From Xestospongia bergquistia (Eukaryota; Porifera; Demospongiae; Haplosclerida; Petrosiidae): a DNA stretch of 64,000 bases. Position numbers and translations under genes: made by a program. Shown here piece after piece: positions 49,336 to 57,600 of the stretch (position 1 is its first letter; every line of letters begins with the position of its first letter). The stretch is taken from NCBI GenBank assembly GCA_963965975.1, contig OZ014425.1, positions 2,989,501-3,053,500 on the forward strand, written 5' to 3'. The notes under the pieces were generated by a model, which searched no databases, was not told the DNA's origin, and worked only from the letters and a program-made list of their open reading frames with translations.

Positions 49336-49419
49336 CTGAGAATTCAAGTCATAGAAAGGAGAAAGACATGTCAACGTACATACTTTTTGGTGACTGTTTA
49401 GAGGATTGCAAAAGTAAGT
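49336..49419 (+). repeat. Left outer inverted repeat arm
   Basis: Runs from CTGAGAA to GCAAAAGTAAGTA and matches the reverse complement of 51,446-51,530. It abuts the last satellite base directly. The arm is open in one frame and ends in a splice-donor-like GTAAGTA, so it may double as a coding exon. Confidence 0.85.
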
Positions 49420-49934
49420 AGTTTAGTCATCCTATTTATTAAAAATAAGACAACAACCTTGTATTGTATTCATTTGCCAATGTCAATACTTTCTGGTGGT
49501 TGGGTTGGCCTTGTGGTTTATAGCTCACTAAGTAATTACATAATTGAGGTAGCTTTCAGCCTCTATTGTTTTAGTGATTTCTTTGATATCATTTCATTAG
49601 TCACTTAATGTATACATTCACTAAAATTAGTTATAAAATTTGCATATACCGTTTAGATACTTTCAATATACTTTTACATTCCTTACAGGTCGGAGTAATG
49701 AAGTTTCCTTAAAGGACATTCTGTGTTTCTTTACTGGTTCATCAGCTGTACCTCCATTCGGGTTTGATATAGATCCAACCCTGTCATTCAGTCACAATGC
49801 AGTTTATCCAACGGCCTCTACATGTACTTTCTCACTCACTCTACGTACATGATACTACAATGACTATAATCAATTTAAGCTCAAAATTGATCAGGCCTTT
49901 CTTTACTTGTCATGGTGGGTTTGCTGTAGTTTGA
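49368..49934 (+). pseudogene. HECT E3 ubiquitin ligase C-lobe fragment, two exons
   Basis: Exon 2 (49,689-49,850) encodes a typical HECT C-lobe: DILCFFTGSSAVPPFGF, then the active-site block YPTASTCTFSLTL, whose Cys would carry ubiquitin as a thioester. Exon 1 (ATG possible at 49,368, ending 49,413) is followed by GTAAGTA. An intron of 275 bp ending TTACAG joins the two in one frame (codon AGT across the junction). The exon-2 frame stops at 49,850-49,852. The usual HECT tail is still recognisable beyond it in other frames (NDYNQFKLKIDQAF, then HGGF) up to about 49,934, so this copy is frameshifted. The N-lobe that binds E2 is absent. It lies inside the inverted-repeat unit. Exon 1 has no recognised similarity and is inferred only from splicing and phase. 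Confidence 0.72.
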
Positions 49935-50109
49935 TTAATGTTACATTCAATATATATTTATGTTCTTGATAGTTTATCTTATGCTCATTGTATTCATTTT
50001 ATGTTGATTTTATTTTATGTTTTTTGATAGTATTGTCTATCTAATGCTTGTATACTTCTGATAAATTTTTGGTAATTTTTTTTTATTTTACATTCAATCT
50101 GTTTATATT

Positions 50110-51020
50110 TTAGAAGGGATTCATATTTTCAAAAAAAGGGGGAAATGTTTCTGTAACTGTTTGTGGTGTTTCCATCCTAGCTTGAGCCATTCTCAGAACC
50201 CATAGCTGATGTGGTGTTTGGTTGTGTGCTGTACGTAGAGGATGATTACACCATGCCTCATGAAACATGTCTACTTGAGATTGTATAATTGGTAGATAAA
50301 CAAAAAGTTGAGGGCACATATATCAACTTCACTAACTGAATCTAATAGACCTACTTCTTCCAGTGAATAGAACAGGAAGTAATAGAATCTAATGCAACCT
50401 TCTCTCCATAAACGTTCTATTCTTTGGTTGTGGACACTTCAACCACAGATGAAACTTCCTCTCTCCAGACCTTTCTTGAAATGCTCAAGCATGAAGTGTC
50501 CAACTAGAACATTTTCTCCTCCACACTCCGAATGTACATGAGATGGTAATCCATAACACTTGACACCTTGCAGAAATGCATTAAAAACAGTCACAGCTTT
50601 GTTAGTAGAGGCTACTTTTAAGTAAACTGGAACTCGGCTATATACATCTATTCCTTCATGTATTACTAATAGCCGCCTCATAACTTTGTGATATCCATCA
50701 ATCTGCCAACATTATATTGCTGACAATGAAAAGTTCTATGTAGCCTAGTTTCAAATCCCAAGGGGTCAACACAATGAATAGACTCTTTTACTCTTTCTCT
50801 TTGCAATATCTCACCATTAACTTTAAGCAGGGTCTGTATTGATCGTATACCACAAGCAGGTAAGAGTGTTACAATCTCGTTAACCAGGTCATGCAAATGT
50901 TGATTAGTTATTTCACTGAATCAATTACATTCAATTCCAAATTCTGTTAGTCTTCTTTGAATCATATGTGTAGAGTAACCTATCAGTGCTGCAATCTAAG
51001 TTTATTTAAATCCAAGAATC
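50110..51020 (-). pseudogene. Degraded DDE transposase with integrase catalytic core
   Basis: Reading leftward from 51,020, a helix-turn-helix-like stretch (GYSTHMIQRRLTEFGIECN) precedes LPACGIRSIQTLLKVNGEI and ERVKESIHCVDP. The integrase core follows (50,681-50,439) with HEGIDVYSRVPVYLKVAS (first catalytic Asp), GLPSHVHSECGGENV, then SVHNQRIERLWRE (catalytic Glu) at about 50,437-50,400, and a C-terminal NHPLRTAHNQTPHQLWV (50,319-50,110). In relatives I recall, the second motif reads SDxGxEN; here Asp is Glu, probably inactivating. The coding sequence falls into at least three frames with stops at the joins, about 300 residues in all, close to a full-length protein. It cuts and joins transposon ends when whole; this copy is dead. 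Family known mainly as multicopy integrase-core proteins in fish, cnidarians and sponges. Confidence 0.8.
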
Positions 51021-51344
51021 TAACTTAATCCTCACATATGTCTAAAGGTGGTCGACCATGGCCTCTCACACCCAAAGTAATCACCTTCATTGCTAGTCAA
51101 TAGTTAATTGAACAATAAGTTGGTGGACTACTCCAGTTATAGGAGTGAAGTCCCAGCGATTAGGAACCAGCAATTCTAGGTGCATACATATAAATGGTCA
51201 GCTCCCTTATAAGAGCCTTCTTAGTGCATACATATCTCGAGGAATAGATTCTCTTAAATCCTCTCTATTCCTTCTCAAATTTGTCTATGCTTTCAATCCA
51301 TCCATCCATCCTTATCAAGCTGCTGCATACACAGATAACACAGC

Positions 51345-51432
51345 TTGAGTTTAAATTGATTATAGTCATTGTAGTATTGTGTTGGTAGAGTAAGTGAGAA
51401 AGTGAAAAGTACATGTAGTGGCTGTTGGATAC
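51345..51432 (-). pseudogene. Inverted, shortened copy of the HECT exon
   Basis: Reverse complement matches 49,805-49,884, covering the active-site block and the following tail (TATCCAACRGCC, CTACATGTACTTT, ACTACAATGACTATAATCAATTTAA). It is joined almost directly to the outer arm, lacking the roughly 390 bp of intron and HECT sequence found on the left. No intact frame. Confidence 0.75.
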
Positions 51433-51445
51433 AAGGTTGCTGGAT

Positions 51446-51530
51446 TACTTACTTTTGCAATCCTCTAAATAGTCACCAAAAAGTGTGTACGTTGACATGT
51501 CTTTCTCCTTTCTATGACTTGATTTCTCAG
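51446..51530 (-). repeat. Right outer inverted repeat arm
   Basis: Reverse complement of 49,336-49,419, ending TTTCTCAG at 51,530. Differences include a one-base change at the GAATTC site and a few substitutions. Sequence beyond it is unrelated to the satellite. Confidence 0.85.
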
Positions 51531-52230
51531 GGTAGCGAACTCGGTTTTGAAACAGTGACTTGATACTCACTATTAGAAATAAAAGAGCAAACACATTACC
51601 ACAAAGTACACGTACTATTGACTTTTCTATTCAATCAATACCTGGAGTCAATTCAGTAGGGGGTGTGAAGGAGCAGTGAAAAGGTTTTCATACTATTCTG
51701 ATGAGACTTCATGGCATCTGTCATACCAAGAGTTTGAAGTCTGTTCAATAGTTGATCAAGCTTACCTTTTTTATCAAAGTATTGTATACTTTGAGTTAAG
51801 GACTGCCATAGACTTGTTAAAGGCTTTATGCTTGATGATTAGGCTGTAAGTCCGTTGTAATCATGCCAGTTAGGATGATGTCATTTTTCTCAAGTTAATT
51901 GGTTACTAACATCACTTTCCAAAGATACCTTGTGCCTGAACTTCAATATCTACTTCATTGGAAATTTTCACGCAAAATAAATAAGGTATAAGGAATGCCA
52001 TAGCCATCTCTGACTTTATCCTTGGCAATTAGGTTTTAAGTCTGTAGTAATCGTACCAATTAGGATCATGTCATTTTTCTCATAGATCTATTGTGCCAAA
52101 ACTTCAGTACATACTCCATTCGCAATTTTTACTCATATAGATGACGAATCAATTACAGTTTGCAATAGAAATCTTAAGGCTTCATGCTGGCAAATTAGGG
52201 TTTAAGGCTATTGTAATCATATCGTATTAT
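51531..52230. repeat. Non-coding stretch with a degenerate repeat of about 165-190 bp
   Basis: Three diverged copies begin with TTAGG followed by TAAGTC or TAAGGC and GTAATCAT/GTAATCGT, at about 51,837, 52,026 and 52,190. The first two also share TTAGGATSATGTCATTTTTCTCA and ACTTCARTAYMTACTYCATT downstream. No gene is recognised from 51,531 to about 52,240. Confidence 0.55.
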
Positions 52231-52242
52231 ATTGCTGATAAT

Positions 52243-52465
52243 AGTAATACTTAATAATGATAATAACAATAATAATGATGGTAAAAATAATAATAATAGT
52301 AATAGCCATGATAATAATAATGATAATAGTAATAATAAAAAGAACAACAACGGTAACAATGACAATAATAATGTTATTTTTTAAAAATTGGACCAGCCAT
52401 AGGCAGAGACATAATGCATCCTGAAATTATAATAATAACAACAATTAACAATAATAATAATGATC
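52243..52465. repeat. AAT/ATG-rich trinucleotide tract
   Basis: Imperfect runs of AATAAT, GATAAT and AACAAC fill 52,243-52,375 and resume at 52,425-52,465. The interruption is a short retroelement-like fragment. Sequence from 52,466 to 52,869 shows no recognisable gene. Confidence 0.8.
52385..52425 (-). mobile_element. Short retroelement fragment
   Basis: Reverse complement resembles the segment near 53,130-53,165 of the neighbouring retroelement (GGACCARCCATAG and ATGCATCC are shared in order). It is probably a scrap of a second copy set in the trinucleotide tract. Too short to classify. Confidence 0.4.
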
Positions 52466-52869
52466 ATCATATCTCAGTTAGCTATTAAAATATGAATTAA
52501 CTGACTTAAAGGTCTATTGAAGACTCTTTAATTGGTTTCGATTTGGAGAAACTGCTGCCCCTTATGTAGAGAATAGAGGAATGCAATAGAGCAAAATTCA
52601 GTTTTCATCTAATCTGTTCGATGGTCTTATTATAGGATGTCTCACTTTTGTCACTTAGAAGAGATGCTATAGAATGATGTTGCACATTTGCCTATCCGTC
52701 CACAAGTTGAGAGAATCAGTAGGATGAAGGTAGAATGTTCTATCTCAAGTACCCGTTGGTCACATTGTTGCATTTTATCATCCTCATGTTAACAATACAC
52801 AGCTACGAGTGGAGCGAGACAGTCTAAAGGGACAAAACGATTAACATCTGTACATCAAAAAAATATCTC

Positions 52870-53710
52870 TCAAACCGGCCACCCATACCACATTTCCTGC
52901 AATGTCAAGGTAGCATAAGGGCTGGTATTTGCTATGTTGTAATCTATCTGTTCTCCCGATAGTTGTTGCAGACTTGGCTCTATCGACACATTGTAACACA
53001 CTTCAGAAAGGAAGGAGGCAGTAATGTTGCATATTTCGTTCTGTCTTATAGAGGGAACCCCCCATTCAACAAGACAGCACATGCTCAGTTGTAAAGGGTT
53101 GGCCACAATTATAATGTGAAGGAGAATTCTTAAAGGACCAACCATAGTGGAGATATCATGCATCCAGAAAAGCTGTCTTACGTAGTGTGAATCCATGAGA
53201 TTTGATTGGTAAAACTGAGAGCCAGATGGACCCACCGTTTTCATTAGAAAAGATCCATAGGCCTAGTTTGTTATAAAGAAAAAGCTGCATTATCCTTTTT
53301 ATACTTCTTCTCTTTTCTTTAATGAAGGTTTTGATCCAGAGTTGTTTCCAGCTACAGTTCACTGGGTTTGCAGATGTTGATTGGTTGTTAATAAGTTCAA
53401 TGAAGGGACCACAAATCGAACTTGAGAAAGAAAATTGTCCTAATGCAAACATAGCCGGTTTCTGTATCCCATGAGGATGGGACGTAGCGATGAAGTTTAG
53501 GGAATTAAACTCTTCACACCAAAGACTAATCTTATTTTTAGCAATTTGTCTTATGGAATTGTGAGATCCAATAGGCTAAGTACCTCCAAGATATTCAAAT
53601 CTATCTGAACTGACCTGTATCCCAGAACCAGCAGAGACCCTCTTTGCCTCAGAGTTGAAGTCAGGTTTTACAAGTAATTGAGTCTTCCGAAGAAACCATA
53701 CTGTTGGCCT
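52870..53710 (-). mobile_element. Fossil retroelement, 3' part of the pol region
   Basis: On the minus strand the order of recognisable blocks follows the region downstream of reverse transcriptase in a retroelement family frequent in sponges and cnidarians. Blocks are SWL..LP..SHGF.LRK.AFLDA, a Cys/His block ending EHVLSC, then a block with SEVCYNVSIEPSLQ.LSGE and a final NTSPYA. About 0.84 kb remain. The reverse transcriptase itself and both element ends are missing. The copy is broken in several places and looks old. No long terminal repeats were seen. Whether the family is a LINE or another retroelement type cannot be settled here. Confidence 0.65.
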
Positions 53711-54660
53711 AGTGTATTTGGCTGATCCAACCACAAATTAAAATTCTGAGAGGGAGGGGCTGGCAACGCGAGACTATAATAATTATTATAGTTGAACTCA
53801 GCTCATGTGGTCGTTTTAATATTCTTGACTGTATTGTTCTTATTAAAGGAAATTGAAGATAGTCTCGTATAATACTTGGGAGAGGGTGAGCAACTCTGTT
53901 GAAGTTAGCAGCACATTCCTGTAGGTGGATCTTAAAACCGCGGTATGTGCTGCTGCAGAAGCCTAATTAATGCCTAATTAATGTCTCATCACCACATGAC
54001 AATGCTACAAGGAAATTTGTATTATTTTGGATATGAGACTGCACTGAAAGATCTCTGAAGGTCAGTGTTTTTGTATTGATGCCTAGGCAACAATAGCAAA
54101 CATTAGTGTAGTATACTCTGCTCAAAGCATTATTGATTGTGCATCAAGTGCTTATGTTGTAGGATATGAGACTCTTATTGGCTTAAGATTGGTTTGTAAG
54201 TCCAATATAACTTCAGGGTTTCCAAGTAATATTCAAATTTCTGACTTTCTTTCAAAGCATTTCAGTACAAATTTGATCAATATGACTATCAGATTCATAT
54301 TAAAATACAGCAATATGTCATTTCTATCACTACAATAGAGTTCAAGTTAATAACTTAAAATCAAGAACTTTGTGTTTGGATAAGGGAAGCTGTCTTTGTA
54401 CGAGGCACTTAACTGCCTTTTCATGTGAAAAGTGAAATTTCTCCGTTATTGACAAAGTGAGAATCTGTAAGTATAATTCAATGAGGTTATAGGTTACGAC
54501 TTATTATCTGGAATTACCTGTGGCCAGACAATTGATTTCATAACATCATTTAAATAGAAAACAGGTTTTTTAGACAATCACTCGCCAAAGCAAGTAAATA
54601 GTAATTAATTTCCATTACCTACATGAAACTGTATGAAGTAATTGTTTGTTAGACTGATAT
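53711..54660. other. Region without a recognised gene; one inverted repeat
   Basis: No coding similarity was recognised. A perfect 10-bp inverted repeat, AGCAGCACAT (53,907-53,916) and ATGTGCTGCT (53,945-53,954), could form a hairpin with a 28-base loop. An 11-bp direct repeat GCCTAATTAAT follows. Further exons of the protease gene to the right could lie between 54,480 and 54,660 (a short open piece ends at GTAATT near 54,520), but no clear exon could be fixed. Confidence 0.5.
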
Positions 54661-54666
54661 TCTCAC

Positions 54667-57600
54667 CATATCATCAAGGTCAATTGGCCAATCATCATCC
54701 ACATACTTTAAAGTCACTATAACATTCTCCATTTAACCCTTTGACGGGCGGGGCAAATTAATTGTAATCACGCCCATGGGCGGCTACTTTTTGAATAATG
54801 TTTTTCAACAATAGCAACGCTTTAAAAGCTTACTGTAGCAACAAGACGACGCTTTCAGGTTAGTAGCTAGTGTGAGGGTGTAGGTAGGCTGTTGTTGTTA
54901 CCTTAACAACAAGAAAAGCCATAAAATGAAAGCTAAACTCTGTAGTATACTACGACAAAAAACGCTTACATTTCGAAGCCAGTTCTGAAGCAGTAGAGCT
55001 CGAGTGATCATTTTTATGAACATACAGTTGATTTAGTTGTTGTGTGGTGAGTCTGTTGACACTTTGTTCTTAGCCAAACGATGTAAACTAAGTGCACAAC
55101 GAAGGTTTTCTTGGACACATCTCATAATGACACAATCACATCCTGTCAATTTATTTGGGTGGAGCTTTCAATTGGGGAAGAAAGCAATTGACTGAAGTAA
55201 GTATTTGTTTCTTGTAGTATTCTACCTGCTGTTTCTTCACTTATAGTATTATAACCTTAAAATGAGTCTTCTAATCTTCCTTTTGGATGATTTATAACTA
55301 GGTGAGTATAGTATCTTCTATAAAGACACACCACTAACGTACACACACAAAGACACAGGCAGGAAGAGAAGCATGTATGTATAGACACAACATACAGTCA
55401 GGCAAAGTGTGGCAATATATTATAACTGTTTGCTAGTGTATGTATAATGTAAGTGTATGTGTGTGTGCATATACACACAGCTAAAAGAGAAGCATCTACA
55501 TATAGACATAACATACCGTCAAGCAATGTGTGGCAATATATTATAACTGTTTGCTAGTATATGTATAATGTAAGTGTATGTGTGTGTGCACATACACACA
55601 GCCAAGAGAGAAGCATCTACATATACACACAACATTCAGTCAGGCAATGTGTGGCTAACTGTTTGCTAGTGTATGTATAATGTAAGTGTATGTGTGTGTG
55701 CGTGTGTACATACACAACATGCACACACAGCCAGGAAGAAAAGCATGTACATATAGATACAACATATAGTCAGGCAAAGAGTGGCAATTGTTTGCTAGTG
55801 TATGTATAATGTAAGGTGTGTGTTTGTGGTTTCTTGTTATCAGTAGATAATTTTGTGTGTGTGTCTGTGTTTGTGGTTTCTTATTATCAGTAGGTAATAT
55901 AATATATAAGTATATAGTACATGAAGAAATAAATGAAGTCTGAATATTGAGTAAGGGTTGATTGTAGATAATTTAAGTATTTAAATCTTAAAACATTAAT
56001 GTACATGTAAAGATGTTTTGCATATCTTACATCGTGCAGCTACCCAGACTTTGATCCCCCCCTTAGTAGGCCTTTTTGCCATATATTGAATCCAACTAAG
56101 CGTCCCTATGAATCCTATAATACTCTCGTCCACTGATATATTTTTTCTGGTGTGTAGGCTCATTTAAACGCTGTAATGATAAGGTCAGGTAGAGGATGAA
56201 TCTTGTACAACTTATCGTAGTTGGTGCTACCTCGTTCTCGCATTTTGGTTGAATCATTTAAATGAAAGTACTTCATTAATAACTCGAATCTTCTAACAGA
56301 CATAATTGCTGTGAGTGACTCATTGTAAAATGGCCACTTCGTACTCCAGTAAGATCTAATTATTTGTACTATATGTATTTCTAATTACAAATGCCTAAAG
56401 TTTTTTTTAGAAAAGAGCTAATAAAATTCATAGTCGCTTAATTAGCTAATAAAGCTGTACTTTATAATAAAGCTTTCATATTTATATTCTTTGATAACAG
56501 TATTCATTGGTGATGATTTATAATATTATTAAAATACAATGAACATTATTACCAGACAATGAATTAATTACCAGAGATGAATACAATTAAATTAGCCTTT
56601 TTATATAATTACCTCAAAGTTGGATAACCAATAACACCCATTGTTATAATGATTGCCAAGAAAGGATTGACTTCACTTCTGTCCATAGGGTTTCTTCTCC
56701 ACTCATTACCACATGCATGACGATGCATATCCAGGTATTCCTCAGATGATGCAAGCTCTTGTTCATCAAATCAGACTGTCGCAGTATAAATGAGATCTTT
56801 CACTTCAGAAGTAAAGAACTGATTGAAAAAACGCCAATAGTGTGCACATGATGTTATCAGTGATGCCTGGTACAGCAGTAAATGCTTGTACTATAAAAGA
56901 TTATTATTATTTACAATTTCTGTGTAAAAACCATGTATTATGTAAGTACCTATCAGGTGTACAAGTAGGAGGTGTTTGGTCTCGTTGTTGATGACAAGGA
57001 TTGATAGGACCTATAAGTAGTTGCTCAGGAGTAACAGCACTGATAGGTGTAGTTTCTGATAACTTTTGAACTAAAGTAGGTGTAGGCTTAGTAGGAAGTG
57101 AGTGCATGGGATAGACGAATGGAATGGAATGGAGGGAGCTGGTGTTGCCTGCATCAGTATCAGCAATATTGTGGCTGATGGAATGCTCATTATCTTAATT
57201 AGGTGGGGCTAATGCTTACAAAATAGTATCATCTGGTACAGGATTATGTCTAATGGAATAGTTCTGCTGCCTCTCCATCATTGAGGATTAAAGGATTGTC
57301 CACGTAGCCATCAAATCATCATCCTAATCCTCGCTAGGAATACCATCCATGTACTCGTTAAAAAACTCAGGATGAGGGAGTAAGCGCTCGTTTCTTCTGT
57401 TAGATTGAGCAATGGCCAGTTAGATAGAATACAGTAATGATGCTTTGACAAGTTTAGTTCGCGTTTTACAAAATAATAAGTTGCTTGAGACGTGTTCATA
57501 GTGGTGGATGCAAATTTGCATCCGCGCCCGAGTTCGAACCGCCCGGGTGGATGCAATTTTGCATCCGCGTGCGTCAAAGGGTTAATAGTTGTCTGATTGT

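Follow-up and report, generated by a model that had tools for sequence, protein, structure and literature searches.

The locus discussed here raises the question of whether a short pair of inverted arms, which bracket an integrase-type transposase and part of a HECT ubiquitin ligase, belongs to a transposon with a ligase among its genes. The window, by which we mean the whole analysed stretch of 64,000 nucleotides, is C15:2989501-3053500 in the 146-Mb, 21-contig genome of Xestospongia bergquistia. The feature in it is very probably what remains of a large IS3EU/GingerRoot-type DNA transposon with both a transposase and a HECT ligase, in a copy that is truncated and dead. From sequence comparisons within the genome, the existence of a HECT-bearing transposon is well supported.

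The longest inverted pair found between 47 and 54 kb of the window is formed by positions 49336-49420 and 51446-51530. The arms are 85 nt long, 96% complementary and separated by 2,025 nt, and thus agree with the arms of about 85 bp in the original prediction. The left arm takes in a splice donor at 49414 (GCAAAA, then GTAAGT), preceded by a remnant of HECT exon 8 (49336-49413, plus strand) that is homologous to exon 8 of L029, the left half of a 33-kb element on contig C10. As anticipated, this donor joins the next HECT exon in phase. Together with exon 9 from 49689 it reads FGDCLEDCKSRSNEVSLKDILCFFTGSSAVPP..STCTFSLTLRT, which keeps the STC motif and is followed by a TGA. Exon 9 (49689-49852, plus strand) encodes the C-lobe and is interrupted by the in-frame TGA; its catalytic Cys codon (TGT, 49823-49825) is present, as had been claimed. 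The corresponding ORF (49637-49852, plus strand) matches Pfam HECT with E 7e-5 over profile positions 226-280, with a score of 23.1 bits that narrowly misses the curated cut-off of 23.9. The expected integrase-type DDE transposase is found as well, though broken: PF24764 (rva_4, integrase core) is matched on the minus strand by three ORFs, with E values of 1.6e-23, 2.7e-11 and 3.6e-12. They represent transposase exon 1 (50164-51320, minus strand), with 84% identity to its open counterparts in other elements. The exon contains a stop as well as changes of frame, and is therefore dead.

The element centre, which comprises the 3' end of HECT and the region that separates the two convergent genes (49336-50168, plus strand), aligns at 81-82% to three intact-ended elements (E11, E4a and E9, described below). 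In E11 the alignment covers positions 9257-8442 and then 7707-6506, and a deletion at 50164-50168 takes away the transposase C-terminal exon of the window copy almost completely. On the right, the predicted shortened, inverted HECT copy is recognizable as an exon 8-9 remnant on the minus strand (51345-51788), made up of 51345-51431 and 51446-51788. The right arm lies inside it and is longer in the siblings; the arms measure 343-346 nt in 7 of the 17 sibling or related loci that were fetched. The left arm stops at 49336 because a 143-bp satellite abuts there. This array (1-49334, no strand; TRF periods 143/429) holds about 345 copies (49334/143), and truncates the element.

The inverted HECT exon 8-9 remnant, with an old transposase remnant, also occurs inside the long terminal inverted repeats of E11, E4a and E9. 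Compared with the same three elements, positions 51097-53749 of the window (minus strand) are the patchy remains of one such repeat, at 66-87% identity. The window arms pair HECT exon 8 with the exon 8-9 remnant of the long inverted repeat, and are therefore internal. We thus reject the arms as transposon termini, which is the part of the original prediction that fails: the real ends, TATGGAATACGAACTACGAC.., mark the outer edges of inverted repeats that are several kb long. No outer terminus was found in the window, where the best terminus match has 12 mismatches in 30 positions. What remains in the window is half of an element, broken and bordering on the 143-bp satellite.

Genome searches with the rva_4 and HECT families returned transposase ORFs that face HECT C-lobe exons. 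Five such loci were fetched (ORFs of 379-466 aa), and four of them, E11, E4a, E4b and E9, were extended. Of the intact elements with both genes and a target duplication for which the original prediction had asked, examples with intact ends were found on contigs C11, C4, C9 and C10. The four elements with both ends are 16.5, 17.1, 18.1 and 33.1 kb long, and all have TATGG..CCATA ends. Each is flanked by a perfect 6-bp target duplication: AAAGGA for E11 (C11:5444254-5460782), GCTCTA for E4a (C4:1409263-1426402), GAGCAT for E9 (C9:6706797-6724912) and TGTATG for the 33-kb element (C10:3368828-3401931, 33,104 bp). The duplications differ among the four elements. For E4b, only one end could be placed (C4:3663286). 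Hence the predicted transposon with a ligase passenger stands in the form of HECT-bearing elements with open transposases and target duplications, but not with the window arms as its ends.

With up to three mismatches, the end pattern identifies 95 termini in the genome (44+51), whereas a control pattern identifies none. A pair of ends on C8 (4084041/4116504) was considered as one element and rejected, as it lacks a target duplication (0/6). Short pairs of the same termini (93-343 bp) look like MITE-like derivatives and are found at C8:5827757-5828088, C9:1886478-1886801, C7:2425263-2425585, C4:9011394-9011736 and C13:2822400-2822492. In the five short elements with these ends, the duplications match at 5/6, 4/6, 5/6, 3/6 and 0/6 positions.

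The inverted repeats are long and often nearly perfect. Identity is 99.6% over 4.2 kb for the inner arms of E11 (86% over 1.0 kb for its outer arms), 99.65% over 4.9 kb for E9, 99.77% over 2.1 kb for E4a, with two further stretches at 96%, and 98.2% over 2.1 kb for E4b. Corresponding sequence is mostly 96.5-98.5% identical between elements, and in three of these four the arms are more alike within the element than between elements. The C10 element (C10:3368828-3401931) is near-palindromic over its 33 kb and has HECT matches with equal scores on both sides. Compared with the 16-18 kb elements, its inverted repeat therefore seems to have expanded inward, to a point beyond the HECT gene.

The elements combine a two-exon DDE transposase gene with a multi-exon HECT gene in convergent orientation. 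Transposase exon 1 has a weak HTH_23 match (below cut-off) and a strong rva_4 match (E 2e-76); the rve match, at 2e-7, is just below its cut-off. The DDE residues are D217-D274-E311, and 36 residues separate D274 from E311. Exon 2, which follows a GT-AG intron, holds the YGIDWSGP motif. The frame is open from MDGWIES to the stop in three of the five copies read, namely E11 and E9 (484 aa) and the 33-kb C10 element (476 aa), and so in three of the four both-ended elements; in E4a and E4b it falls short of MDGWIES. A structure prediction from one transposase sequence was too poor for use (pLDDT 40). In a search of viral and prokaryote collections that reaches close relatives only, no close relative of the transposase was confirmed.

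The HECT gene model has about nine exons and was built from genomic sequence, with a tentative join between exons 2 and 3. In L029, exons 4-9 are spliced over five GT-AG introns, all in phase, into a stop-free reading frame of 371 aa. This core matches Pfam HECT (E 1.4e-12) over profile positions 35-305 of 306 and contains an STCTF motif; a HECT domain with its catalytic Cys points to a HECT E3 ligase. By sequence, the best match among solved structures is AREL1 (E 2e-4). For the N-terminal exons 1-2 (232 aa), no Pfam family is matched at E <=0.1. Since the inverted repeats include the first exons of the gene, both arms contain them, as is seen for the N-terminal exons in E11, E4a, E4b and E9. 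A candidate microexon between exons 2 and 3 was dropped, as it brings a stop.

What the ligase does for the element can be outlined as a proposal. Both-ended elements of 16.5-33 kb, with a transposase of 476-484 aa convergent with the roughly nine-exon ligase gene, would transpose in an integrase-like manner. The ligase would act in trans, most likely by ubiquitinating the transposase itself or host proteins that hold the element in check, and would help the element, yet be dispensable in any one copy. We find it plausible, though with slightly less than even confidence, that the HECT protein has persisted in the lineage over deep divergence as a functional helper in trans, with its 5' exons in giant, largely homogenised inverted repeats, and that this amounts to an undescribed counter-silencing or self-regulating ubiquitin system. 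By this view, a parasite of the genome would retain a means of disturbing the protein turnover of the cell. A selected HECT ligase would link cut-and-paste transposition to the ubiquitin system and would represent a testable helper protein. It would also caution against reading every set of repeated HECT genes in an animal-like genome as the expansion of a host family, since some of them would be transposon genes. A variant of this proposal, which we hold possible but tentative, has the ligase target the transposase rather than host silencing, for turnover of bound complexes or for dosage control. The constant pairing of the ligase with the transposase would fit such a role, and a self-regulating function would tolerate loss of the ligase in some copies.

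Selection on both genes was assessed with dN/dS (w) from NG86 counts, with L029 as the reference and shifted frames as controls. For the transposase, w is 0.31-0.34 in E11, E4a, E4b and E9 (p 1e-7 to 4e-7), 0.45 in L010 (p 0.006), 0.52 in the window, 0.54 in L025 and 0.49 in L009 (p 0.0004-0.002), 0.65 in L014 (p 0.02) and 0.67 in L012 (p 0.05). Some of the shifted-frame controls are also low, and for L012 one of them is lower, at 0.47. For HECT, comparison of L029 with five divergent copies gives 0.28-0.38 (p 1e-5 to 3e-4). Four of the five (L009, L016, L021 and L025; w 0.28-0.33, p 1e-5 to 9e-5) are related array copies with common ancestry and thus not independent. The fifth, L013, has w 0.38 (p 3e-4), with one shifted frame at 0.60 (p 0.04). 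HECT values for E11 and E4a are 0.44 (p 0.01) and 0.59 (p 0.052), and comparisons that come without p values give 0.41 for the window, 0.35 for L014, 0.47 for E4b and 0.54 for E9. The recent C10 copies L011 (w 0.60, p 0.22) and L010 (w 0.78, p 0.40) have no clear selection. Shifted-frame controls for HECT span 0.38-4.2 and are lowest in recent pairs, which have few changes. The counts thus show purifying selection on HECT in older branches, with none seen in the youngest.

All four copies read from the C4/C9/C11 subfamily (L026, L027, L028 and L030) have a frameshift in HECT exon 6 in common, and three of them have perfect target duplications. HECT is thus probably not needed in cis. The subfamily may do without it, or the C10 group may provide it in trans; it is also possible that gene conversion spread the frameshift later. 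The frameshift in a subfamily with target duplications, like the unclear selection in recent copies, is what one would expect if HECT were a useless captured gene, which hitchhiked by chance in one successful lineage and is now decaying. We regard this explanation as unlikely, as it is at odds with the five divergent comparisons, in which the in-frame values of 0.28-0.38 stand against 0.60-2.0 in shifted frames. It is also at odds with a divergent locus on C12 that has the same layout, with a HECT C-lobe 56% and an N-terminal part 34% identical, and a D-E spacing in the transposase that is again 36.

The association of the two genes extends beyond the intact-ended elements. Among the matches listed, the 21 strongest for the transposase have E values of up to 5.5e-59, and none of them is inside satellite arrays; 15 of the 21 have a convergent HECT exon on the opposite strand within 3 kb. 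This is a hand count, and the 15 include two mirror copies of one C10 palindrome. At C10:3761874, the HECT match is on the same strand as the transposase match. Five loci (C3:5906903, C5:3011205, C9:7320542, C10:1480931 and C11:4110063) have strong rva_4 matches and no HECT nearby among the matches listed; they could be misses, ligase-free relatives, or elements that lost HECT. Most HECT matches checked adjoin a transposase match. Three of those listed (C13:4223025, C8:4155932 and C11:4156955) are more than 5 kb away from any listed transposase match. At C8:1.68-1.80 Mb and C1:4.05-4.10 Mb, further HECT exons are clustered in series and apparently belong to tandem host genes. Arm copies confined to a HECT gene and free of transposase, an outcome that the original prediction had named as speaking against it, were not seen.

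It is very improbable that the locus arose when a host HECT gene happened to be duplicated in inverted orientation next to a transposase unrelated to it, with no HECT-bearing transposon in existence. In the window alone, the arms are indeed pieces of HECT exons and both genes are broken. However, the same two genes, layout and ends recur with distinct target duplications, the 15 of 21 listed transposase matches have a convergent HECT, and no obvious separate host donor gene is among the matches listed. The accidental reading is in effect refuted by the elements in which both genes occur together with two ends and target duplications.

A DNA search of the sponge's own genome with the window feature gave at least 196 matches (40 of 322 candidates scored). 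Seven copies (L002-L008, on C15 and C7; L001 is the window itself) match the window over the whole 5.2 kb at 97.7-99.8%, in alignments that run through the satellite and the right flank. Copies occur in series mid-contig on C5, C6, C7, C11, C14 and C15, at a spacing of about 114-202 kb, with one wider gap of 246 kb on C11. On several contigs, the 143-bp satellite is accompanied by an edge unit at intervals of ~114-202 kb, and has the appearance of a higher-order array that holds one transposon relic. We take this array for a segmental and perhaps centromere-like repeat that carries one relic. Recent insertions of the window-type unit could also account for long copies at 96-100% identity on C4, C5, C6, C7, C11, C13 and C15, but this is hardly credible and we reject it, as L002-L008 share both flanks with the window and copies in series mid-contig are segmental repeats. 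At 54733-54737, the window departs from five sibling copies at a TTAA, and then starts CCCTTTGACGGGCG, in the manner of a piggyBac-type insertion. The history of the window copy may be pictured as follows. A rearrangement would have cut the element, so that on one side HECT exon 8 was fused to the satellite, and on the other a deletion brought the central transposase up against an older HECT/transposase remnant of the terminal inverted repeat. The cut element would then have multiplied with the satellite in the mid-contig arrays.

Among cellular proteins, the HECT part may be likened to G2E3-like HECT ligases, with which it has in common the HECT domain and the STC motif at the active Cys. The difference is that it is transposon-encoded and has N-terminal 232 aa that match no Pfam family. 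Among transposons, IS3EU/GingerRoot elements have TA..TA ends and usually 6-bp target duplications, as described in PMC10045372, and the TET-bearing fungal IS3EU elements end in TAYGG..CCRTA, according to PMC12730594. The TATGG..CCATA ends of the sponge elements fit the latter pattern (PMC12730594), and the TA..TA termini are present in four of them. Duplications of 6 bp are perfect (6/6) in the same number, and the transposase is integrase-like and of the DDE type (rva_4 E 2e-76). Ends, target duplications and transposase type thus fit IS3EU/GingerRoot, a placement drawn from these features. The sponge elements differ in having a HECT gene, and kb-long inverted repeats that hold the first exons of the ligase.

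Fungal IS3EU elements carry a TET/JBP dioxygenase and an alpha-kinase, with the transposase and alpha-kinase in opposite orientations, as reported in PMC12730594. The sponge elements are similar in having passenger genes in an IS3EU element, and different in the enzymes and the hosts. The words HECT and ubiquitin are absent from the main text of PMC12730594. Among the open-licence papers listed in literature searches, no HECT-bearing DNA transposon was seen, which is weak evidence of its absence. Passenger genes of transposons, such as TET/JBP in fungal IS3EU, point to escape from host control or its tuning. Other transposons also contain genes related to protein modification, namely ULP1 in plant MULE and CACTA elements and RING in RAG1/Transib. 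Like these, the sponge element is mobile and encodes a protein-modification enzyme, although the enzyme classes and the transposon superfamilies are different.
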